Positions 9,301 to 60,300 of a stretch of DNA of 64,000 bases are shown piece by piece. The notes under the pieces were generated by a model, which did not search any database, had not been told where the DNA came from, and saw only the letters and a program-made list of their open reading frames with translations. Each line of letters begins with the position of its first letter. Positions within the stretch are counted from its first letter, which is position 1. Made by a program: the position numbers and the translations under genes. The stretch is from Saururus chinensis (Eukaryota; Streptophyta; Magnoliopsida; Piperales; Saururaceae), in NCBI GenBank assembly GCA_035235625.1, contig CP141141.1, positions 3,844,001 through 3,908,000 on the forward strand, in the 5' to 3' direction.

Positions 9301-12300
9301 GCTGTCTCCGGATCAGAAAGGGCAGACGCTCTGAGGAAACGAGCAACTCCGAACATTGTCACTTTCAAAATTGGAGGGGAGTACGCTTTCCTGACCTTCT
9401 AGTTTAATATGCTTTATATGACTGCACATCTTGATTTATTCTATTGTGATCTGAAATGCTCTCTGCTATGACATGACATACTCTGATCTGATATGACCAG
9501 TATGGTCGGATAAAATCTGATATGATCTGATATGATCCAACAGGTTCTGTAGTGTGTTCTGCTCCGCTCTATGATAGAGTGGGATGTGTGTTTTGTTAGT
9601 ATTCTTCTCACCTACGTGAGATGTGTGTTTTCTGATATATTGGCTTTCATTTAACTCCGATGACTGATAAGATTTCCGTTGGATTCTGAACGAATCATTC
9701 AGATATAACATATACGTATTTTATCGTATATAATTTTCTGATGTTTGGTAAATGTATTAGCCATTAGGCAGAACTACGTTCGGATCCGATCGTATTAGAA
9801 TAACGTCAGAGATGGTATCCAATATGTACGTAGGCAACCAACGATAAAATAACGTTGGCCCGATCCAAATTAGTTATAAAATTAGGTTTATTCTAATCTA
9901 CGCACAATGGAACGTTAAAGCTCCGTAGTGCGCAGATGAACGTTATGACTCTCGCACTCAGAGTCTGCAGCTCCTGGTCAGTCGGTTTTAATTTTTCTGC
10001 TAATTTTCGACACTCCGATTGTGTTTTTCGATCTAACCCCCAGTCCGGGTCAGGTGGTGCAGGTCGGGGCGTTACAGGGGTGATGATCAATGGAACAAAA
10101 ATGATATAGTTGACATGGAAAGTATGTATGACCAAGAAGAATTCAGACACATCGAGGTACCTAGTAGCTTTAACATTGAGGTCGAGGCAAAGTAGGAGAC
10201 ATTTGATGATCTCAACATGTTGGAACAAAATATTGGTGAAGGCGAGCTAATGACTAGCAGTTTGCAAGCAAAGGACTACTAGAATCTACTCGTAATGGGT
10301 AGACATTTTCTAAGCCTATTACATTTTAAGAGGGTTTTGATTGACCTAACAATAAAGGCGAATTTCACTTATCGTGTTATGGATGAGAACATGAATACAT
10401 ATGCTGCAAAGTGCTCCGATTAGTCTTGTAACTAGTACATAAGGGCTTCAAATATATGTGATCATGTGACTGTGACAAGGTTAGTGCCTAATCATTCTTG
10501 TGGAACTCAAAGGAAGATAGTTGACCATCCTCTAGCATCACACTTTTGGATTGCGAGAAAATGTTATGGCTTGTTTAAAGATTCTATAGACATTACACCA
10601 AAAAGCATATCAAGTTATATTTTGAAGTACTGGGGTATAACTACAAACTACAAGAAATGTTGGCACATAGGTAAAATAATCTTATGAAACTCCTTGCAGC
10701 TTGTACTAAGTAACACAAAATTTAAATATGACGTATTATCGGGCACACAACCTAATTATAGTCTCATTTTTTTACAACACTACCTAATTACCTATAGTGT
10801 TAACATGAACATGATGCTTAATCAGTTCAAGTTGATGATATCATGACTACGAAAGTTATCGTGTTATCGGGAACATGATGAATGAACTTGTCGTATAACC
10901 TTGATTAGACTATTAACAACTGAATATTCAGTCGTGCAGGTAAAACACTGACTAATTTAATAGATAGGGACCCAGACGAATCCTATCGCATACTTCCTGC
11001 TTACGAAATTCAAATTGAAAGGATAAATCCATGAGTGTAGTTGTTCCAATTAGATCATATGATATTCCCGGACCTATAGGGGGTACGATTTCAAAAGTCT
11101 TTTGGATGTTTGGGCCTATTGTAAGAGCGTTTAGAACAACATTGAGACCATTGCTAATGGTAGATGTGACTTTCTTGAAGGGAAAGTATTCTGAACAGCT
11201 ATTTATAGAAAATGCACTAGATGGGAACACTAATATGTTATGCATTGCACTTGCAGTGGTCAAGAATGAGTGTGAGAAAACATGGCTCCGGTTTCTTGAA
11301 TTGCTTAGAAATAATCTATTTTTTGATCCTCCAACCGAGTTGGATACAATTGTTTCTAATAGAATGAAGGGTTTGACAAATGTTGTTAAACAATATTTTC
11401 CCTCCACACACCATGGATATTGCATCTGTCACATGGTAGCAAATATGTTGGATAGATTCAAGGACAACTACCTTAAGAACTAGCTCCATGTGGCAGCTGA
11501 AACTTTCAGACATAACATGTATATGATGAAACAATGAACAACATTAAAGAATATAATCCTGAAGCATTTGCTTAGCTAAATAAGATAGGTTCATAGCATT
11601 GGGCCAATGTTGCATTTCAAGGAAAAAGATATGGAACCCTAGCTCGAACAGGTCTGAGAGTGCAAATGCAATGTTTAAAAAAGTCAGGCTGATGCCTATA
11701 GCTCAGTTAATTGAGCATACAACCGCACTATTTGAGAAACGTCGAACAGATGAACAAAATATGGCTAACGAGTTAACCCCATTTGCCCGTAAACATATCA
11801 AAACAGAAGTGAAGAAGCAAGGAATGTGCATGTATTGCCGATATCAATGTATAAATTCCAGGTTAACTCGCTATATCACTAGGTAAAATGCAATTACAAT
11901 TGTGTAAGTTTATACGTTATTATCCATATCGTGTGTATGTTTATACATTATTGTCCATATCGTGTCAGTTTATCTGTTCTAATAACACGATATAGTGTGA
12001 TCATATGGTTAGTGTTACGGGTCGTATATGCGATAACACGACATTTATCAAATATCGTGTCCTCATTTTCACAAAATGTATTGAACATGATGTTGTGAAT
12101 CTGGTCGAATATAGTTGCACATGCGGAAAGTTTCAGTACCTGGGGCTACCGTGTAAACATACAATCGTAGCAATTAATCACAGATACTTCTATGTGCATG
12201 ACTACTGCAAAAAATAGCACTCTACATAAACATATAAATTGACATATCGAGAGCAAGTATATCCAACAACAAATAGGCATCAGCGGGCACTAAGGAGTTT

Positions 12301-12645: not shown

Positions 12646-18596
<5,951 letters not shown>

Positions 18597-23317: not shown

Positions 23318-25223
23318 TGTAATGTCCCTGATTTTTCTACGATTTTCTGTAATTTTTCTGCTATTTTCTGGCCACTTTCGGCGGGAAAATATTACGCTTC
23401 GGCGTATTCGTATTTATATTTTTCCCCCATATTTATACCCGTAGAGTCGGGTGTGGGGCTTAGTCGCGGGCCACGGGCCTTGCTGCGCGCTTTCGGCACG
23501 AATTTTAGACTCACAACGTGTAACCATGTGGTACGCGTGTGATGGGGGCACGAATGGAAAAAGAAATAAAATAAAATAAAATAAAAAGAGAAGATCGGGC
23601 TCGGGCTTGGGCTCGGCCGAGCCCGATCCAGAAAATTCTGGATGGAACAGTGCACCGCCCCCTCTGGTTTCCTCTGCCAGCCGCCGGTGGGCCGCAGCAC
23701 CGCCACCATCGGCAAGGGGCCACCGTCCCGGCCCCGATGGCCGCTCCGCCCTCTGCCTCGTTCCTCCCCGGTTAGCGCCTCCTCTCTATTTTCATTTGTT
23801 TCTGCCGCCGCCGTGGGCCGGCAAGGGCCAACCGGCCACCGTGAGCTTCGCCGTAGTCCGGCGACTGCAGGCCGCCGCCCCTCCCGGTCCTAGGGGCCTC
23901 CGCCCCGCCGCTCCAGCTGATTTTTGCCCTCTACCCCTGTTTCCGCCCCCCTTCTGTCGATCTCGCCGGACGGCTTCGGCTGCCGTTGGACGGCCCGGCG
24001 GTGCTCAGTCGGAGTCGCCTTGGTCCGGCGACAATGATGGGCTACCCCTCCCGACCCCGGGGGCCTCCGCTCCGCCGCCCCGGTCGAAATCCCTCTCTGC
24101 CCTGTTTTTCCGCCCCTTTTGATTGAGTGTGCCGGCGGGCTTCGGCCGCCGTTGGACGGCCCGGCTGTGCTCCGTCGGACTCGCCGTGGTCTGGCGAAGT
24201 CAGGGGGACACCCTACCCGACGTGGTTCCATCTCCTCCGCCATCATCTACTCCGGCCGGTGCATTTTGCCCTTACTGTGATTCGATTTCCAGTGGGTTAG
24301 CGCTGCCATCGTTGGCAGGTGAGGGTGACGACCACCGTGGGCTCCTCCCCGGCCCTGGGGACGGCTCCATCCAGACCGGTTCAGCCTCCGTCTCTCCCTT
24401 GCTCGGTCCGGGCGTCCCCTATTTTTGGTATACGTTCGTTTTGGACGTGGTGACTGCCGCCATCAGTCGGATGCCGAACATGACCTAGTGGACCTTCGTC
24501 CGACTCCGCCCTGGCCCGGTGATGCCAATGGGCCACCCCTCTGGGCCTTGTTCAGCCTTATGGCCCGTAACCGCAGCTAGTTTTGCCTCACTGGCATATT
24601 TGTCGTTGACCCTTCTTGCCCTTTTATGCCGTCGGTACCGGACGGGCTTCGGCAAGAATTAGTAGGACTTATGGTGACCGAAGGTGGATGAGTTCACCTG
24701 CTCAGGCCCTGGCCAGTGACGGCCTCATGGCCTTTGCTCGACCCTGAACCTTCCCCTTGCCCTATGTCGTGCGTGATGCACAACTCCCCGCACCATGGTG
24801 GTGGTTGTGGGTGTGATCGGCGATGTCGCCGTTTCGATTGGCCACCACTAGGGCCTTAGCCCTGTCGGCCTCTTATGAGCCTTGGACCGCCTTTGTCCCT
24901 CCCCTTTGGCCGCGTGTGCATGTGGCCACGCATGTGCTCTTGGGTTTAGGTGCCGCATTCGCGCCGCCTAACCATCGGATGGCTTTGACACTGAGTGGAG
25001 TTGACACATAGCCCTCCTCCACCTCTCCTATGTCCTCGAGTGTTGCCCCACGCTCTCCGCCCTTATGTGGGCCTTTGTTGACCGAAATCGTTGCCGCTGG
25101 GTGCTGTCCACGGCCGATTTCGATGTCTTGTAGCCGGCTGAGCATGTCTGAGCCACCGGCCGATCTTCTGTGAGTACACCATCGACATTTGGTCGCACCG
25201 CCACATATGTTGGCACGATATTT

Positions 25224-25440
25224 CTCCCGGCCGCCCTAGTGAGTATGTGCTAGTGATGGCTAGCGTGTTTGTTGGTAAGTTTCGTACGTTGATTGAGTAT
25301 GTGCTAGTGATGGCTAGCGTGTATGTTTAACGTGTGTTATGCATGTGCTAGTGATGGCTAGCGTGCATGTTTAAAGTATGTATGAATGTGTGTGCATGTG
25401 CTAGTGATGGCTAGCATGCATGTTCGTAAGTTACGTATGT
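25224..25440 (+). repeat. Tandem repeat with core TGTGCTAGTGATGGCTAGC
   Basis: Four copies of a 50-65 bp unit, each with the near-perfect core and a variable TGTATG-rich remainder. Confidence 0.85.
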
Positions 25441-26189
25441 ATGACCGTATGTGTATGTTATACGTATGTAGGAGACATACGTATGTATGATGGCTTTTTT
25501 TTGCCTATGGTATGGATATGTGTAAGTGTATGTGGCCAGAGGTATGGACGATGGACAGTAAGAGGTTGCAGAGGCTTTGTCTGAATTTGGATACGGTTGT
25601 GTAAGCATATGACGGAGGACAGAGGATATGAGTATGACAGGCAAGGCTTTGGAGCGGTTTGTTTGGTTTGTATCAGAGCGTATGTTGGGCGATTGTCAGA
25701 TAGTAAGAGTGTTCATAATTGTACAAGCATAACGTACATTTTATGAAGTGAAAAGTAAGCATAATCAGTGAGGTATTAAGTAAGAGGGCGACAATTGGGT
25801 TTGGCTCTGAGGAGCTTAGTGATGACATTTGTATACGTTGTTTTGGCCATAAGGTAGATGGCTGAGTATGTAAGACTGTATGGGTTCGTTGTACAGTGAG
25901 GTTTGATCATGATGTGGACGGGTTAAGTGAAGTCTGCTGCCCTGACGAACTAGGGTTTCGGATCGGGCTCAGCTTCAGTTTGATCAGTCGAGGACTGTGA
26001 GTTTGTGTGGCATAATTATACCGCATAATGTACTTAATTCAAACTTGAATTATAAGCACAGCTAATGATAGCGTTGTGAGTTTGAGACCTGAGGGTTCGA
26101 CGGATTAAGTTCCGTGTTTGAGCTAGCCGATAATGAGTCGGCTAAGCATTTATCATGTCTTGCCATGGTGGTTATCCTGCGGGTTGTTG

Positions 26190-26480
26190 TCTGTGTGCTG
26201 TGTAGAGCACCGGACGTCTTTTGCTCTGTTGAGAGCGATGTATGTTTCCGATTTGGTCTGTGTGCTGTATAAGCCCAGACGTTTGATGCTCTGTTGAGAG
26301 CGTTGTATGATTCCACCCAAGGGTGGCACTGTATGTTTCTGCCCAAGTGGCACTGTATGTTTTTCTGCCCAAGAGTGGCACTGGCACTATAAGACCCATT
26401 ATGGTGGGCAATTGTATGGCACTATAAGACCCCTTATGTGTGGGCAATTGTATGACCCCTTATGTGTGGGTGTATGTTTG
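26190..26480 (+). repeat. Short tandem repeats in the 4.5-kb element
   Basis: Two copies of a unit built on CTGTGTGCTGT...GCTCTGTTGAGAGCG are followed by three copies of GCCCAAG-GTGGCACTGTATG and three copies of ACCCCTTATGTGTGGGCAATTGTATG-like sequence. Confidence 0.75.
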
Positions 26481-26689
26481 CGCGCTTAGGTAAGTAGTAT
26501 CATGGACCTACTCTTACTTGTTTGATCTTGTGCCCCATAAGCACTGGTGTGCCTTACCTTCGGAAAAGTCCATGGCGTCTAGTCACTCCCCGGAGGTTAA
26601 GGTGTTGTCCTAGTGTCATTCTTTTCCATTTCGACGCTGAAGCTTATTAGTTGTAATGAGCTTCAGTGGTCGTTGATATGTGTATGATT

Positions 26690-27070
26690 ATGAGTATGAG
26701 TACGACTGTAAGCGTATGTGTATGAGAACGACTATAAGCGTATGTGTATGAGAACGACTGTAAGTGTATGTGTATGAGTACGACCGTATGAGTATGAGCA
26801 CGACTGTAAGAGTATGAGTACGATTGTAAGAGTAAGACTGTAAGCATATGAATCCGAGCAAGACTGTAAGTGTAAGTTTATGAGCAAGACTGTAAGTGTA
26901 AGATGTGCGAGTAAGGTCGCACGAGTAAGTGTAAGATGTGCGAGTAAGGTCGCACGAGTAAGTGTAAGATGTACGAGTAAGGTCGTATGAGTGAGCATAT
27001 GATTGTACAAGTAAGGTCATACAAGTATGTGTAAGTTGTATGAGTATACGTACGATGGTATGAGTAAGTT
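26690..27070 (+). repeat. GTAAG/GTATGAG tandem array
   Basis: Purine-rich repeats: about 30-bp units with TGTGTATGAG-ACGACTGTAAG, then three 36-bp units with GTAAGATGTGCGAGTAAGGTCG. Long open frames on the minus strand here arise from the repetition and are not genes. Confidence 0.85.
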
Positions 27071-27841
27071 TGTAAGACCCTGGATAAGGGTGTTTGTGTA
27101 AGTTTCTTTTGATGGTACAATTTTGGCACGATGGTGCATTTGGTATGACTTTGGCACGATGGTGCAATTTGGTATGTTTGTATGCGTATGAGCATGATGT
27201 TTGTATGCCTATCTGCTTCATGTTTGAGTTGCATGAACACATGTTTTTATGAACTTTTGAGTTCACCGTTTGGGATTTCCCCTACTGGGTATTTTCCTAC
27301 TGAGTATGAAAATACTCACCCTACCATTTTTAGCCCCGTGGTTCGGGAGGCTTTTGCAGGTGTGTGTTGGAGAGCTCCTGGAGATGGATGCTCATTTCAG
27401 CGGTGGATTGATTCCCGTTGACTCAGGTATATACTTGATTCACTGCGAGTTTGTTTGTGCCACGATCCGATGTATTGGGTGAGATGAGACGTTAAGATGT
27501 TTATATTCTAGACTTTCATTTGGATTAGTCTGTGGACTGTTATGGGACTTGCACTCAGGGATGCCTGGGAGTGTTTTATATTTAAAAGTCTATGATCATA
27601 GCGAATTTAGTCGTACGTGTGTTTTCGAGTAGCGCCTGATGATATTTGCTTTGGCCGTACGATGTTTGACCGTGTGATGAAAATATTTAGATGGAAAATG
27701 GATGTTTAGAGTTTTAAATTATAAACTGTTTTATCAGGTTTTGATTTCGTCATTTTTCCTCCGATTTACAGACGTTATATTGCAAAAAAATTCCGTGAAT
27801 TTTGAGGAAAATGTGTGAAAAATCTCGGGCGTTACAGTTCA

Positions 27842-28201: not shown

Positions 28202-28210
28202 ATTAATCAA

Positions 28211-29738
28211 TAGGAATTGACCAAAGTAGACTCCTACTTTAGTGAAATAACCAAAGCATGAGCAAGTATCTTCTATTTACCAAAGTACACTTACTCACGT
28301 GGAAACTTGTAAATGTGTAAAGGCTTTTTACTGAACTACCCTCTCCTTCATCATATGACAACCCGATGGGAAAAATCATCTACATCGGTCGCCAGTCCAG
28401 AAAAGTGTCTTCTTCTTCTCCGGTACAACTTCATCCTGCGGTGGTTTTATCTCCAGTAAGGCTTCCTACCTGGGTTGGTTAATCTTTCGAGCTACTTTTG
28501 TTTGCCCAGTTGTTTCCTTCTTCACGACTTTTCTTTGGCACGTCTCAACGTCAAGCTTCGTATATTCCTTCGTAGAAGAGAATTGATTCATGTTATTTGG
28601 GATGATGAGAAATGTGTTACCAGATGAAAAATTGTATTTTTGGTTGGTTATATATTGGTCATTACGTAGTTTCTGCTAATAAGATTTCTGGGTAACCGGA
28701 AAACTGAAAACGGGAAACTAGACATTTGGAAGACTGGATAACTGAAAAGTGGAAAAGTAAAAAACTGGATTGCTGATATGATACGAGAAGAGCATAGAAA
28801 GGGAAACACAAAGTGTAACGCCCGTGATTTTTCATACATTTTCCTTAAAATTCATGGAAAATTTTTGCAATATAACGTCTGTAAATCAGAGTAAAAATGA
28901 CGAAATCAAAACCTGATAAAACAGTTTATAATTTAAAACACTAAACATCCATTTTCCATCCAAATATTTTCATCACACGGTCAAACATCGTACGGCCAAA
29001 GCAAATATCATCAGGCACTACTCGAAAGCACACATACGACTAAATTCGCTATGATCATAGACTTTAAATACAAAACACTCCCAGGCATCCCTGAGTGCAA
29101 GTCCCATAACAGTCCACAGACTAATCCAAATGAAAGTCCCTAACACGCGTTCACCTCTCGGTTACGTGTCGTAGCTCCAAAATTTGCGCCGTAAGCGTGC
29201 AGCAAGGCCCGCGGCCTGCGACTAAGCTCCACGCCAGACTCTACGGGTATAAATACGGGAAAAAAAATACACAAATACGAATACGCTAAAGCGCCGTATT
29301 TTCCTGCCAAAAATGGCCAGAAAAATAGCAGAAAAATCACAGAAAATCGTAGAAAAATCAGGGACATTACACAAAGTTTGTTGTATGTTTGGGATGTATA
29401 TTGGGAAAGATACAAGTCCCTTCAGTAAAGAAAAAAAAAGATAAAAACTCCTTGAAAAATATGATACATGTTTAGAGAAAAATGTATTTTTGTGCATATG
29501 AAAGGTGTACAAGGACAATTTTTTGTTGATATTACGTTTTTGCATGAGGTTATCATGTTTCTGTTCAGGTTTCTAGTAGACTTTTCTAATTTCCAATTTG
29601 ACAGTTTCCCAGCTTGCAGTTTTCCAATTGCCCGTTTTCAGTTTTCCAGTTCCCAGCTTTAAGTTTTCTAGTTGCCCATTTTTCAGTTTCTATGTATACA
29701 AGGTCCAGGTTCCATCCCATTATGTTAGTATGGTTTTC
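28211..29738. repeat. Left terminal inverted repeat of the MULE (interrupted)
   Basis: Pairs with 30441-31404 as reverse complement along its whole length. Its inner part (29590-29700) contains tandem TTTTCCAGTT-type units, which also pair with their complement on the right. Bases 28814-29376 are the nested insertion and its extra TSD copy. Confidence 0.92.
28814..29371 (-). mobile_element. 558-bp mini LTR-like element, TSD CAAAG
   Basis: On the minus strand it starts TGTAATGTCCC (29371) and ends CGGGCGTTACA (28814). CAAAG flanks it at 28809-28813 and 29372-29376. The uninterrupted site is preserved in the other arm of the MULE (CTTTG at 30801-30805). Its sequence corresponds to the two ends of the 4.5-kb element at 23318-27836 joined together, lacking about 4 kb of middle. 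It keeps TTTATACCC near the start and has no coding capacity. Confidence 0.93.
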
Positions 29739-29746
29739 ATTGGATT

Positions 29747-30130
29747 TTGGTGGTGCTCCATATATGGGAAGCTAATATTCATATTTTTGAAAAGTATTAC
29801 ACCAGTGAGGCGCTGGAAAAGTATTACCCTCTTTATTCCGATGAGGCGTTGGAAAAGTATTACACTGAGGTGAATAAGTTACTGGTCCTTATACCTCTCC
29901 TCCTCTATAAGTTTGGTTTGTTAGAGTGCGCTAGTTTGTGGACGATGGATATTGTGGAGGTAGTAGGTCACCCCAAACAGGTTAACTGTGATGACTGTGG
30001 GGTTCTTGTATGCTTATACATGTGGTATTTGTCACATCGGTATGCTTTTGACTTCACTGGTGAGGGCGTGCCCTGGCTAAGGAAGTTACTTACTTACCAG
30101 TCATGGACAAAAAAAAGGGTTACGGTATGA
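29747..30130 (+). CDS. ULP1-like (peptidase C48) C-terminal fragment carried by the MULE
   Basis: A 127-codon frame in the unique centre of the MULE. Residues 76-95 carry the ULP1 active-site signature: PKQ (the oxyanion-hole Gln, residue 78), then DDCG with the presumed nucleophile Cys84, then VLVCLYMWYLS and a downstream Phe-Asp-Phe and Trp-Leu-Arg. The upstream catalytic His and Asp of SUMO proteases are not recognisable; in their place are three copies of an EALEKYY-like motif. A possible 3' exon follows an AG at 30213. Known relatives are the ULP-like genes carried by plant MULEs such as Kaonashi. Probably a decayed or partial gene. Confidence 0.65.
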   Translation: MVVLHIWEANIHIFEKYYTSEALEKYYPLYSDEALEKYYTEVNKLLVLIPLLLYKFGLLECASLWTMDIVEVVGHPKQVNCDDCGVLVCLYMWYLSHRYAFDFTGEGVPWLRKLLTYQSWTKKRVTV

Positions 30131-30440
30131 ATTTAGTTATTCAGTAAATGTTTTATTTTCATAACATTAAATTAAAGGCTTTACTAATGCAGTTGTTGAA
30201 CCTTTATTTTTAGAGGGTGACAACGCCCTTTCGGAGACAGAGAAACTAGTACAAACCCTGCCATGTGTTGAAGCATTAATAGAACTTAATTTTTTGAATT
30301 ATTCTTTGTCATAAAACTCAGTTCAATGTTTTTTAATTATGTTCATATGGATATTGCCTTCAGATGGTTATTTTATGCTAATACAACAAATTCAGTTCTT
30401 GTTCTTTTCCATTTTCTATCACACAAATGAGCAATTTAGA

Positions 30441-31404
30441 GAAAACCATACTAACATAATGGGATGCAACTTGGACCTAGTATACATCAGAACTGGAAAA
30501 CTGACAACTAGAAAACATAAAGCTGGGAACTGGAAAACTGAAAATGGGCAATTGGAAAACTGCAAGTTGGGAAACTGGCAAATTGGAAATTAGAAAAGTC
30601 TACTAGAAACCTGAACAGAAACATGATAACCTCATGCAAAAACGTAATATCAACAAAAATTGTCCTTGCACACCTTTCATATGTACAAAAATACATTTTT
30701 CTCTAAACATGTATCATATTTTTCAAGGAGTTTTTGTCTTTTTTTTCTTTGCTGAAGGGACTCTTCTCTTTTCCAATATACATCCCAAACACACAACAAA
30801 CTTTGTGTTTCCCTTTCCATGCTCTTCTCGTATCATATCAGCAATCCAGTTTTTTACTTTTCCACTTTTCAGTTATCCAGTCTTCCAAATGTCTAGTTTC
30901 CCGTTTTCAATTTTCCAGTTACCCAAAAATCTTATTAACAAAAACTACGTAATGACCAATATATAACCAACCAAAAATACAATTTATCATCTAGTAACAC
31001 ATTTCTCATCATCCTAAATAACATGAATCAATTTTCTTCTATGAAGGAATATACGAAGCTCGACATTGAGACGTGCCAAAGAAAAGTAGTGAAGAAGGAA
31101 ACAACTGGGCAAACAAAAATAGCTCGAAAGATTAACCAACCTAGGTAGGAAGCCTTACTGGAGATAAAACCACTGCAAGATGAAGTCGTATCGGAGAAGA
31201 AGAAGACACTTTTCTGGACTGAGCGACCGATGTAGATGATTTTTCCAGTCGGGTTGTCATATGATGAAGGAGCGGGTAGTTCAGTAAAAAGCCTTCACAC
31301 ATGTGCAAGTTCCCATGTGAGCAAGTCTACTTTGGTAAATAGAAGATACTTATTCACACTTTGGTTATTTCACTAAAGTAGGAGTCTACTTTGGTCAATT
31401 ACTC
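30441..31404. repeat. Right terminal inverted repeat of the MULE
   Basis: 964 bp, reverse complement of the left arm without the 558-bp insertion. It includes the intact target site at 30801-30805. Confidence 0.92.
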
Positions 31405-31413
31405 ATTAATCAA

Positions 31414-54375: not shown

Positions 54376-57300
54376 CTACAACTGGCCATCAGCTTCTATT
54401 TCTTTGGCATCGGTGGCAGCACACAAAGCCTTCCAAACATGAACCAATATCTTCACCGGAGGTCTTAGATTCTACATGCAGAACAGTAAAAGTAAGAATT
54501 TTGCAGCAACATTATGTTTATATGCTTTCTTTTGATAGCCACAAAACCACAACACAAAGATGCCAGACAGCTACATGGTCAACATAGCCTAAAGAAAATT
54601 TCACTTTATATAAAAAAAATTTCAACTGTTAGCCTTTTTTAAAAATGAAATATAACTAGGATTTGTTGCTACTTTAATTTTCTTCTGTTTTTCCTTCTTT
54701 TTTGGGAAAAATCTGCATGCCTGTTTTTCATGCTATAAGATAGGATATAGCTCAAAGGATGATATGCCCAATTGATCATGCCTACTTTGCTCTCTGCAAG
54801 GTAGTACACATACATTACAAATATAGTTCTAAACAATAAATTAAAGTGGGGCACTGGATTTTCGCTTGTACCTGGAACACTAACATCATTTCTCCTTCCC
54901 CATACACAAGCAAAGAGAGACTCCAATAACACGTGATGGGAGTTACACATTCATTTAGTATAGGTTTCAAAATCTTGCAAATGGGAACAAATCGGCGTTT
55001 GACTCTTCCACTGCAAAATTAGATGGAAAAAGATAAACAACAATAGATAGTATTCCCTTTGTCCCATATTAATTGTCCACATTTGAGAAAAAGGTAATAT
55101 TTAAGGAAACCTTAGCATTAACCTTTTTACTCCATCCACTAACCCTTTTTACTCCATATTGCTATGAGAATAATAAAATAAAATGGGACAATTAATACGG
55201 GATAAAAGTTTTTTTCAAATGAGACTATTAATATGGGTCGGAGGGAGTATGACCAAGCCTATAATACATTTATGCAAGAGATTATATAGGAACATGCATA
55301 GGGTTAAAAAAAGGCACCAATTCTATAGGAGAAACACAGGTAGCAAAATAGTGTTATGAATATAATTGCTTGTCCACAATTTGTTTAAGCCCATAGTATT
55401 AGTCTTTCACATTATATAAGGTCGTTTAGTCAAGTTCTATTTATTTATGTACTTTTGCTCAAGTTAATTCCAACTTTAGTACTTTTTGTATCAGAAATTT
55501 CCTAGTTTAGTACTTGCATTGTATTAGATGCAATGAACTCTATATAAGATCGATCACTCAGTTTAGTAATTCAAATTTAGATCTCAGAGTTCATTAATAC
55601 AAAGAATTCAGGATTCAGTTCTCCTCTAATTAACGGTAATCTAGCATGGTAGTTGAGGATCGTGCCCGACTCAGCTAGTTGTCGGCCACTGTTTATTCCA
55701 GCCATTGGTTCCGCAAGGGTGCCTCCCGCACGTTTGTTCTTCTGCTGTTGGTCAACAAATAGTGGAATAGTAGACACCCGCCTGACTCCATCTAACTCCA
55801 CCTGCATCTTCGCACCTCACTCCACCGCCTGTTTCCACTTGCCTAAGTCAGCGCCCGCTTCCACCCATTTTATCTCCCAGCAAGTGACCATCAGTGGTCT
55901 CCAACACTGCAACCAGCAACAACTTACTCATCTGCTTGCCTCTGAGAGACAACGCTTTTAATTTGACACAGCAGTCTTTACCACTTGTTGCCAGCTTCTG
56001 CTTTGATGCCAACCAATACATGCTTTCACTGCCGTTTCTGATCACTTGGCTCTTTTGAGAGGAGTCGTCACTATCAACCTCATTTCTGAATTTTTTGCTC
56101 AGATGCTCTGCCCTTGCAGCCCCGGGAAGGAGCAGAACCCCCATAAATCCTGCTGACACCAGTAAAGAATCCCCATCAAGAAGGCTACTTCTTTTGAGTC
56201 TGTCTGCCTGCGCCTTTAGGGTTATTGTTTGCTTGGTCAATTGCTTGTTCTTGACTACCTATAGCACAATTTAAAAAATTTGACCCTCAAATTGAATAGG
56301 TCTAACTACTCCAATTGAAGTTATATTATGTCCAATATTTATAAGGGAAGGAGGTAATGGAAATATATTACGGGTAGAGTTACTGAGCCTGAGAGAGGTG
56401 CTCCTGTCAAAATTGAGGATTTTGAAAGACAAATGGATGAATGGGAAGCCGATAATTCAAGAATTGTCATGTGTTAAACAATTCAGTTGAACTGAATATA
56501 GTGGTCCAAGTGGCCAAATTTAAGACTGCAAAACAAATATTAGAGCATCTAGCCAAGCTCTTTGTGCAGGTCAATTATGCTAGTTGTTATCAGCTCGAGA
56601 TGGAGGTCAAATCTACACAAGAAGGTGATCGATCCATACAGGACTTCTATGCACATATGAAAGGGAAATGGGATGAATTAACTTTAATGGATCCTGGAAT
56701 ATTGTCCACTGATCCGGAGTTGGTTGCATACAGAGAAAGGCAATGCCTAATATAGTTTCTGTTAGCTTTGAGGAGTGATTTGGGACACTTCAGAGTTCTA
56801 TGTTGTGTTGGTGGATTTCGGTAGTTCCCTACGCACAAGTAAAGACAATAGATAGGATGATCATTCCTTACAAGAAATAGAGAATAATTTTTTTTTTTTA
56901 TGTAGGATGACCTTCTCTTGATTAATCAATACTACTCTTTTGCGATTTGGAGTGAGCAGGGGTGATTAATCAATTTTTAAAACCCTTCGATTAGATAGCA
57001 AAATGAAAAAAACAACTTACAATTTATTAAAATAAGAAAAGAGAATTGGCAGCAAAAGTAGCTACAACTTTCAAGTTTTAAAAAAAAGAAAAATTAAAAA
57101 AGAAAAATTCTTCTTGAAGATGAGAGCTCTCCTTGCACAAGTTCTTCTTTCTTGAGTGTTTTTGTTTGTCTTCTAATTCTTCGAACTTCTTCGACTTTCT
57201 AAAAGTCAAAGCTTTTTAGGAATTTGGATGTCTTTTGGTGTGTGATGGACTTTTCGATTTCTTTTTGGAGGTTCTATAGACATGAAAGCCAAAAGCCCAT

Positions 57301-60300
57301 CACACACAAAAAGACATCTAAATTCCGCCTTAACCTTCAAAAAGTCGAAGAAGTTCGAGGAATTAGAAGACAAACAGAAACACTCAAGAAGGAAGAAGAA
57401 TGTGTGCAAGGAGAGCTCTCATTTTCAAGAAGAATTTTTCTTGTTTTCTTCTTTTCTTTTCTTTTTTAAACTTGAAAGTTATAGCCACTTCTACTGATAA
57501 TTCTCTTTTCTTATTTTAATAAATTCCTAAGTTATTTCTTTTATTTTGTCATCTAATCAAAGGGTTTTGAAAATTGATTAATCACCACTACTCACTCTAA
57601 ATCGCAAAAAGTAGTCTTCATTAATCAAAAGAAAGCCGTCCTACACAAAAAAAAAGTTATTCTCTATCTCTTGCAAGGAAGGATCATCCGATCCATTCTC
57701 TTGACTTGTACGTAGGGAACTACTGAAATCCACCAATAGATTTCTAGCAAACTTGGTGAGACCTCCTCCTACCATCTTTTTGGCAAAATAAAGGCTACTA
57801 GAAATTTCAAGCTCGTCATTAATTTTGATTAGGCTAAGTTTCAAGGGCAAAACAAAAACATCAAAAAATGGTGATTCCAGTGGATCTTAGCATGGATGCT
57901 ACGTGTAGTTCCAAGAAGAAGAAAAAAGTGAATGTTCCATTGCGTAAAACCACTCACTCCCCTCACTTTGCCTATGGGAAAGTTTTGAGCGGTGACAGTG
58001 TGTTTTCAAGGCTAAGGCACCATGCTCCTGAAGACTTTGTGAACCAAGCTCATGTAGATCTTAAGACCACCCACTCCCCTCACTTTGCCAATGGCAATAA
58101 CACACTTTGTTAAGTCATTTTTGAAAAAAATTCATGGTGGGTGAAATCATCCCCTTCCCTTTTCAGGAAAGACTTTCTTCATCTCATACTTTTTTGTTTA
58201 TTTTCTTTCATGGGCCTCCACCCCTTGGCATTTGAATTATCACCCAAAGTATGATAATCTTTTTGTTAAATGAAGTTTTCACCATCATGCAAGAAATTTT
58301 CTTTGATCTTGCCTTGAAAGCCGATGACATTTTCTTTTTTCTGGGCTGAAAAAATTCTCCATTCATGGGGAATGTCGCAATCATAGGTCCATTTTTCTTT
58401 TGGGGCCTTTGAGGTCTTAAGAACAAACTTGTTGTCATTTCCCCATTTACATCCTCCAATGGCTTAAACCGATTGTTTTATCGTAGCCCTTTAAAAGAGG
58501 TTGGAAAATGACCAATTGGATCTCATATACCAACATCAATGAAGCTATCATCCACATTTCTTTAACCCCTTGAACCATAACTTTTGTCTTTTTCATAAGT
58601 CTTAAAACATTCAAAGCCTTTTTTGACTTTCCACCCAGAACTTTGTTCCCTAGCCTTGAAAACACTCTCATCACTCGACTTTTTGCTAGAAGTAAAGTGA
58701 GGGGAGTGAGTGGTCTTAGGCTCCACATGAACTTAGTTCACAAAGTATTCAGGAGCATTGTGCCTTAGCCTTAAAAACACACTATCACCGTTCAAAACTT
58801 TCCCATAGGCGAAATGAGGGAAGTGAGTGGTCTTAGGCTCCACATGAACATGGTTCACAAAGTATTCAGGAGCATTGTGCCTTAGCCTTGAAAACACACT
58901 ATCACCGCTCAAAACTTTCCCATAGGCAAAGTGAGGAGAGTGAGTAGTCTTAGGCTCCAGATGAGCTTGGTTCATAAAGTCTTCGTGAGCATTGTGCCTT
59001 AGCCTTTAAAACACACTGTTACCGCTCAAAACTTTCCCATAGGCAAAGTGAGAGGAGTGAGTGGTCTTAGGCCATGAACATTCACTTTAGTCTTTTTTTT
59101 TGAACAATACATAGCATACATGCTAGTATCCACTGGAATCACAATTTTTTCTTAATGTTTCTATTTTGCCAGAAAGGCTTAAAACTTAACTTCATCAAAA
59201 TGAATGACGAGCTTGAAATTTCCAGTAACCTCTATTTTTGCCAAAAAGATGGAAGGAGGAGAAGGTCCCACCAGGTGCGCTAGAAATCTGTTGTGGATTT
59301 TGGTAGTTCCTCTACGCACAAGTCGAAATCTGTTGGTGTATTTCAATAGTTCCCTACGCACAAGTCAAGAGAATGGATCGGATGATCCTTCCTTGCAAGA
59401 GATAGAGAATAACTTTTTTTATATAGGACGACCTTTTCTTAATTAATCAAAACTACTTTTTGCTATTTAGAGTGAGCAGTGGTGATTAATTAATTTTTAA
59501 AACCCTTCAATTAAATGAAAAAATGAAATAACTTACAATTTATTAAAATAAGAAAAGAGAATTGTGAGGAGAAGTGGCTACAACTTTCAAATTTAAAAAA
59601 AAAAACAAGTAAACAAGAAAAATTCTTCCTGAAGATGAGAGCTCTCCTTGCACAAATTCTTCTTCCTTCTTGAGTGTTACTGTTTATCTTCCAATTCCTC
59701 GAACTTCTTCGACTTTCTGAAGGTTAAACCTTTTTAGGAATTTGGATGTCTTTTGGTGTGTGATGGAGACTTTGTCCATTTAAAAATTTGGTCTCACTCA
59801 GCGCTAGTTAAGCTCCGAAATCTTTGCTTTTGGCATAGTCCTCTTCCCACAGTTGACTCTGTTAATCAGTTGATTGCTGAAGAAACAAAGTTGAAGCTCA
59901 CTGTTCTTTCCAGTCTCTCTCCTACAATCCTAGTGTAGTGACAACATCCTTTGGTACAAAGCTCAACTGGTTGCCAAAGAGTATGCTCAGGAATACAACA
60001 TTGATTACAAGAAGACTTTGCTCCTATGGCAAAATAACCATTGTTCATACTTTGATTTTAATGGGTTCAGATCGTCATTGGTTGTTACATCAGCTGGATA
60101 TGAAGAGTGTCTTTCTGCATGGGGATTTTGAGCAAAAAGTCTAAATGAAGCGTCCTCTTGGACTACCTCATACACATGTGGTAAGGTATGTAGGTTGAGA
60201 CGTGCTCTTTATGGTCTCAAACAAGCATCTCGTGCCTGTTTTGAGAAGTACAACACCACTCTCCTACAATCAGGTTTCACTCCTAGTGGCCATGATTCAG

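Follow-up and report, generated by a model that had tools for sequence, protein, structure and literature searches.

Can a MULE whose inverted arms of nearly 1 kb enclose a fragment of an ULP1-like protease gene represent a transposon family of its own, or is it a rearranged form of another? The question is raised by an element within 64,000 nucleotides of the Saururus chinensis genome (assembly GCA_035235625.1, contig CP141141.1, positions 3,844,001 to 3,908,000), hereafter the window. A first-pass annotation, made from the sequence alone, recognized a MULE with ULP cargo and proposed a distinct family. The copies present in this genome make it quite probable that the element is instead a non-autonomous fold-back derivative of a resident TIR-MULE family encoding both MURA and ULP.

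The window element and its copies

The borders given by that annotation are borne out by direct reading of the sequence: the element ends with TAGGAATTGACC at the left and GGTCAATTACTC at the right, and matched ends are bounded by perfect 9-bp duplications. The arms were recovered independently of the annotation as inverted self-matches; its estimates, arms of about 965 bp and a centre of about 700 bp, agree with the measured 965/964 and 702 bp, the nested solo LTR having been missed. This LTR, bordered by CAAAG at 28809-28813 and 29372-29376, is a later insertion, foreign to the MULE, and because it is nested in the left arm the raw arm spans 1528 bp, or 965 bp once the LTR is subtracted. The element comprises the following parts:

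28211..31404, unstranded: whole fold-back MULE (putative derivative), 3194 bp with the nested solo LTR counted in
28202..28210, unstranded: left 9-bp target-site duplication ATTAATCAA, a perfect match to the right copy
31405..31413, unstranded: right 9-bp target-site duplication ATTAATCAA, sequence read directly
28211..28813, plus strand: outer piece of the left arm, by self-comparison
28814..29371, plus strand: nested solo LTR (TGTAAC...TTACA), 558 bp, with 5-bp duplication CAAAG
29377..29738, plus strand: inner piece of the left arm, resuming past the nested LTR and the second CAAAG
29739..30440, plus strand: centre, 702 bp, the 3' region of the family ULP gene, common to other copies
30441..31404, minus strand: uninterrupted right arm, 964 bp, 94% identity to the left arm

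Degenerate minisatellite-like repeats (AACTGGAAAACTG, spaced 15-22 bp, in both orientations) occur inside the arms at arm positions of about 480-560 and 800-915, for example at 29590-29698 and 30490-30589 of the window.

The genome (516 Mb, 11 contigs) was surveyed with the clean right arm as query, yielding 866 first-look candidates, the best 40 of which were scored, so that counts are lower bounds. Among the 77 arm matches listed, 33 (the window's own included) start in the first 6 arm bases and extend to at least position 962, with 84-100% identity. The terminus GAGGAATTGACCAAAGTAGAC, allowing up to 2 mismatches, occurs 447 times (222 + 225), compared with 0 + 1 for the reversed control pattern. 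The structure in the window is therefore not due to chance, given the recurrent near-full arms and 447 termini versus one control match. Eleven other two-ended copies carry 9-bp duplications that, judged by eye, are perfect in eight, one of these being poly-T and therefore weak, and show one mismatch in one and two mismatches in two. Seventeen head-to-tail terminus pairs were recognized in the first 100 listed terminus places, and 11 of our choosing were sampled. The one retrieved whole (L033+L034) has a perfect duplication, while the ends of the 10 further pairs show perfect duplications in six cases, one mismatch in three, and a duplication out of register in one. An exact-match search for duplications at nine single-ended loci returned candidate matches, which may or may not lie at a terminus, for L021, L025, and L027 and none for the remaining six; the duplication of L027 was identified by eye, with one mismatch. 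A second end of L026 was not found within the retrieved stretch. Two loci, L012 (500-2192) and L013 (500-1982), are snap-back forms with a loop of 56 bp and no loop, respectively, both flanked by 9-bp duplications (with one mismatch in L012).

Features of TIR-MULEs (Mutator superfamily) are thus present, including 9-bp duplications, terminal inverted repeats, and a MuDR-type transposase in the coding members. The window element has in addition the form of a fold-back MULE, with long inverted arms, a short loop, and no transposase, as do the nearly loopless L012 and L013. Assignment to the MULEs, on the basis of TIRs, 9-bp duplications, and MURA-encoding relatives, accordingly agrees with the annotation. 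The searches that it had proposed, for the same arms with 9-bp duplications, for related ULP cores, and for a larger relative encoding MURA, all gave positive results: long-armed copies recur in the genome, the same core is found at other loci, and members with MURA and ULP exist (L027, L033+L034).

Larger members and the compound arm

The centre of the window element retains part of an ULP gene, in which three features were located:

29729..30130, plus strand: open frame, ULP1/C48 C-terminal remnant, with His, Gln, and Cys motifs kept and the 5' part absent
29797..29866, plus strand: 36-bp tandem duplication in the ULP remnant, by self-comparison
30273..30278, plus strand: junction of a short internal deletion (centre 535/540), by comparison with L019, L026, and L027

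Against the Pfam Peptidase_C48 model the window remnant reaches 15.2 bits (E = 0.02), under the cut-off of 20.7 bits, while the larger copy in L027 exceeds it with 21.8 bits. The earlier reading of the centre as ULP1 (C48) is weak for the window copy itself, which falls below the cut-off, but its relative in L027 passes. Larger copies contain His (NNNHWILVVL), Asp (IFDPLY), Gln, and Cys (KQVNCDDCG) motifs in varying frames, and those examined contain stops or frame shifts. We take the His, Asp, Gln, and Cys residues of these motifs to be the catalytic residues of C48 proteases. In the window remnant IFDPLY, which would supply the catalytic Asp, is replaced, beside the 36-bp duplication; judging from this replacement and the missing 5' part, the remnant probably lacks protease function. 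The 36-bp duplication is absent from at least 17 of the 40 scored loci, in which the match breaks at about centre 50/88, and L019, L026, and L027 are longer by about 360-390 bp at the centre 535/540 site. With gap- or stop-containing codons dropped from copies that hold stops and gaps, median pairwise dN/dS for ULP is 0.37 among parent-type copies (15 pairs, 6 copies) and 0.49 among fold-back copies (10 pairs, 5 copies); for MURA it is 0.54 (10 pairs, 5 copies with stops and gaps, L021 left out).

A survey with the MURA of L027 as query gave 149 scored matches, of which 98 have at least 64% identity and were counted as family, and the remaining 51 have 44-57%. Domains above cut-off were PF10551, PF03108, and PF04434 (MULE, MuDR DNA-binding, and SWIM domains) in L029, a decayed copy in which the three fall in different frames, and PF10551 in L027. 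An ULP centre lies within 12 kb of a family MURA in 20 of the 40 scored loci, with about 0.2 expected by our own arithmetic. Taking the main ULP piece, 17 of these 20 neighbouring pairs are codirectional, ULP lying upstream, and 3 are opposite. In L026 and L027 MURA is located between the arm and ULP, and ULP is opposite to MURA; in L021 MURA is present and an ULP match was not seen. Nearness of MURA and ULP does not always mean one element, as illustrated by the ULP at C3:5347569: its own element ends at C3:5349126, and the MURA counted with it sits in the next element, L033+L034, which has its own ULP.

That neighbour is a full member of 11,661 bp (C3:5350511-5362171, duplication AAATTAAAA), with MURA and ULP inside TIRs of 148 bp at 95% identity. 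MURA and ULP also lie inside one TIR-bounded element in L027 (9.16 kb), the ends of which share only about 110 bp. Four further pairs enclosing MURA have TIRs of 148, 148, 164, and 252 bp. Five sampled pairs of 3.4-3.9 kb, with no MURA or ULP among the scored matches, have terminal matches of 210 bp, 437 bp, and, in three cases, at least 900 bp, which is the limit of the retrieved stretch; an 8.3-kb ULP-bearing pair has a weak terminal match (65% over 757 columns). L029, L030, and L033+L034 are rearranged: inside each lie a truncated arm copy and two pieces of ULP in inverted orientation. L029 and L030 look like inversion isomers, since the segment with MURA, flanked in both by inverted copies of the inner arm plus ULP 3' end, has opposite orientations in the two.

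Aligning the window arm on L033+L034, L029, and L030 reveals that the 965-bp arm is compound. Positions 1-131, the portion matched by both ends of paired MURA-bearing elements, are the true TIR; positions 136-632 (about 500 bp) map to the upstream side of MURA, and 634-964 (330 bp) to the interval between MURA and the 3' end of ULP. On the window these boundaries are:

28211..28341, plus strand: true family TIR, left end (arm positions 1-131), inner limit approximate
31274..31404, minus strand: true family TIR, right end (arm positions 1-131)
30771..30773, minus strand: arm junction 632/634, a deletion of about 3.0 kb, the segment holding MURA in larger members

At least one arm crosses 632/634 in 16 of the 20 loci examined, and MURA is missing in those 16 because the arm runs across this junction. 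In the other four (L019, L021, L026, and L027) the match stops at 632; MURA is seen in the last three, and in L019 it was looked for and not seen. A short imperfect match, ATATTGG vs. ATATAGG, marks the break.

These measurements bear on two other explanations. A distinct MULE family in which TIRs of about 1 kb and the ULP gene are ancestral and autonomous would account for the recurrence of long arms and ULP core with 9-bp duplications. All six MURA-bearing members measured, however, have TIRs of about 110-252 bp, and arm segments 136-632 and 634-964 are internal sequence flanking MURA in L033+L034, L029, and L030. Such a family is largely refuted, and we regard it as very improbable. Still less credible is a Pack-MULE, in which a host ULP gene fragment was captured between pre-existing long TIRs. 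The window element is, as that would predict, non-autonomous, with a gene fragment aboard and no MURA seen; against this stand the association of the same ULP gene with MURA in half of the scored loci, its position within one TIR-bounded MURA element in L027 and L033+L034, and the arm sequence adjoining the fragment, which is that gene's flank in the parent. Since ULP lies near MURA and the arm is the flank of ULP, the parent transposon is the source of the fragment, and fresh capture from the host is rejected because the fragment belongs to MURA-bearing members. What had been called cargo is therefore a parental gene, broken in the window element. The long arms are a derived trait, belonging to non-autonomous fold-back derivatives of the resident family, and are not the TIRs of a distinct autonomous one.

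The inverted junction and the pairing of arms

The inner end of the left arm meets the ULP centre at one further junction:

29738..29739, unstranded: inverted junction of arm 964 with ULP centre 1, shared by several copies

The window element, L009, L011, and L017 give an uninterrupted alignment through this join, while against L026 and L027 the parent sequence ends at it, with two bases shared. Coordinates also put the arm no more than 6 bases from the start of the centre at C5:48128 kb and C1:48163 kb. Given the common junction, this fold-back form most likely arose once and then spread to new sites, acquiring new 9-bp duplications. That each fold-back copy formed separately at its own site, out of a deletion derivative already resident there, is very improbable in our estimation. 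It would explain why arms pair element by element, the two arms of one element being sisters in 8 of 12 elements in the tree (5 of the 8 strongly supported, the window pair at 100/95). It is at odds with the unbroken junction of the window element, L009, L011, and L017, barring a hot spot there, and with the position of these four elements within one 12-arm fold-back group supported at 100/96. The arms of L009, L014, L017, and L028 do not pair in the tree.

Under a single origin followed by divergence alone, same-side arms should group together. Side-matched clades were rejected for the window element, L009, L011, and L017 (p-AU 0.003 and 0.014), both AU tests involving these four elements selected for their shared junction. 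Arms are mutually closer than to every other arm in 6 of 12 elements overall; by arm part, they are mutually closest in 3 of 12 (positions 1-131), 7 of 12 (136-632), and 1 of 9 (634-964). Element-wise pairing in place of same-side grouping is the basis for reading the pattern as homogenization; it suggests, without amounting to proof, partial gene conversion or re-copying between the arms of one element.

The copies at hand suggest a sequence of events for the origin of the fold-back form by derivation from the resident family. Full members hold MURA and ULP within TIRs of ordinary length, 148 bp in the best copy, and generate 9-bp duplications. In the derivative one TIR is joined to the MURA-upstream segment, MURA is deleted at a fixed junction, and the ULP 3' end comes next; this end occurs twice, in inverted orientation, so that arms of 965 bp enclose the broken remainder of ULP. 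The inverted duplication may go back to one faulty repair following excision, with the same side of a sister element serving as template for the two broken ends. Copies with the same inverted junction are dispersed, each with its own 9-bp duplication, so that the derivative itself has been mobilized. Mobilization would take place in trans, presumably through family MURA binding the common TIR; neither MURA nor ULP was recovered as an intact gene. Partial homogenization of the arms of an element may have followed later, as long inverted repeats pair or re-copy each other.

Known relatives, consequences, and other features of the window

TIR-MULEs with an ULP region have been described in grapevine, in both orientations (PMC2528002), and in melon (van Leeuwen et al., 2007, as cited in PMC2528002), so that the annotation's argument for a distinct family, that ULP-bearing MULEs lack long TIRs, is not supported, given also the short TIRs of the MURA-bearing members here. 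In the available part of PMC2528002, Table 4 marks Mutavine-3, -4, and -18 as including an ULP-1 region; ULP-marked families have TIRs of 158, 141-144, and 230-263 bp, with one lacking a TIR, and another grapevine MULE family has a TIR of 710 bp. The MURA-bearing members in S. chinensis share with the grapevine and melon elements a MuDR-type transposase, an ULP1 region, and the TIR design, which in grapevine comprises TIRs of 141-263 bp and, where found, 9-bp duplications (PMC2528002). Compared by description only, they differ in having fold-back derivatives with arms of nearly 1 kb, of which the part of PMC2528002 available to us describes none. KAONASHI (KI) MULEs of Arabidopsis likewise combine MURA with an ULP protease domain (PMC2528002, PMC13317346). 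According to the same portion of PMC2528002, KI MULEs are non-TIR elements with ULP opposite to mudrA, unlike the present family, which has TIRs (as in the full member). Its ULP orientation is mixed, ULP and MURA running in the same direction in 17 of 20 neighbouring pairs and in opposite directions in 3, with L026 and L027 likewise opposite. The barley element Abermu (8.2 kb, TIRs of 138-145 bp, with MURA and a frame of unassigned function in reverse; PMC9168764) was considered and rejected as a match: its ends, GGG...CCC, differ, and the words protease and peptidase are absent from the accessible text.

Fold-back MULEs are known as well, namely FARE1 of Arabidopsis and MuTAnT of Medicago, the latter with a larger coding relative (PMC4486113). 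As far as the available description in PMC4486113 extends, these too are non-autonomous MULEs built of long inverted arms; in S. chinensis the arms include sequence that was internal in the parent, and the loop contains an ULP remnant. MULEs with multiple or tandem long TIRs are similarly amplified, mostly non-autonomous, and rearranged in their terminal regions, and in the accessible part of PMC3310237 they duplicate the TIR, mostly in tandem, whereas here one whole end has been duplicated in inverted orientation. Among the papers listed in a search of literature mostly outside subscription, none combines the fold-back form, Mutator, ULP1, and a plant host; the combination may nonetheless already be published. 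The family is new, a well-supported conclusion, while TIR-MULEs with MURA and ULP and fold-back MULEs are kinds already published.

The series of copies in one genome displays the making of a fold-back element, from a fixed deletion of the transposase through one inverted junction to dispersal. It also suggests caution: the long 'TIRs' and 'cargo' of non-autonomous MULEs may be rearranged parent sequence, in which case such traits are neither ancestral features nor captures from the host. A more doubtful proposition, to which we give little weight, is that the derivatives act as mobile natural hairpins, read-through transcripts of their arms folding into long dsRNA that feeds small RNAs and silences the autonomous parent. 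The predicted dsRNA would cover the family TIR and the MURA-upstream segment, homogenization between arms would hold the hairpin near-perfect through time, and the derivatives would be a transposing counterpart of Mu killer of maize. Mu killer is one locus. Like the fold-back copies it is an inverted duplication of part of a MULE, TIR sequence included (PMC3440606); it holds mudrA sequence, in contrast to the dispersed family described here, whose arms lack the catalytic part of MURA. The structure series allows fold-back formation, arm homogenization, and possible hairpin silencing of the parent to be tested.

Several other features were observed in the window. A reverse-oriented unit of 4.5 kb at 23318-27836, with GTTCA at either side and a GC-rich interior (up to 62%), matches with its two ends the two ends of the solo LTR (95% and 83%); it may be a long LTR, the 558-bp LTR being its shortened form with an internal deletion, or else an element that is non-autonomous. 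A MURA-like open frame at 11019-11483 (plus strand) belongs to a distant, other MULE group, with 30-34% identity to the family MURA. The region 56806-59781, in which 57297-58097 matches 59766-58917 in inverted orientation at 81% and direct repeats lie near 58643-59081, is perhaps another inverted-repeat element. Open frames at 15733-18596 (plus strand) are kinase-like and resemble what we take to be exons of an SR-protein kinase gene.
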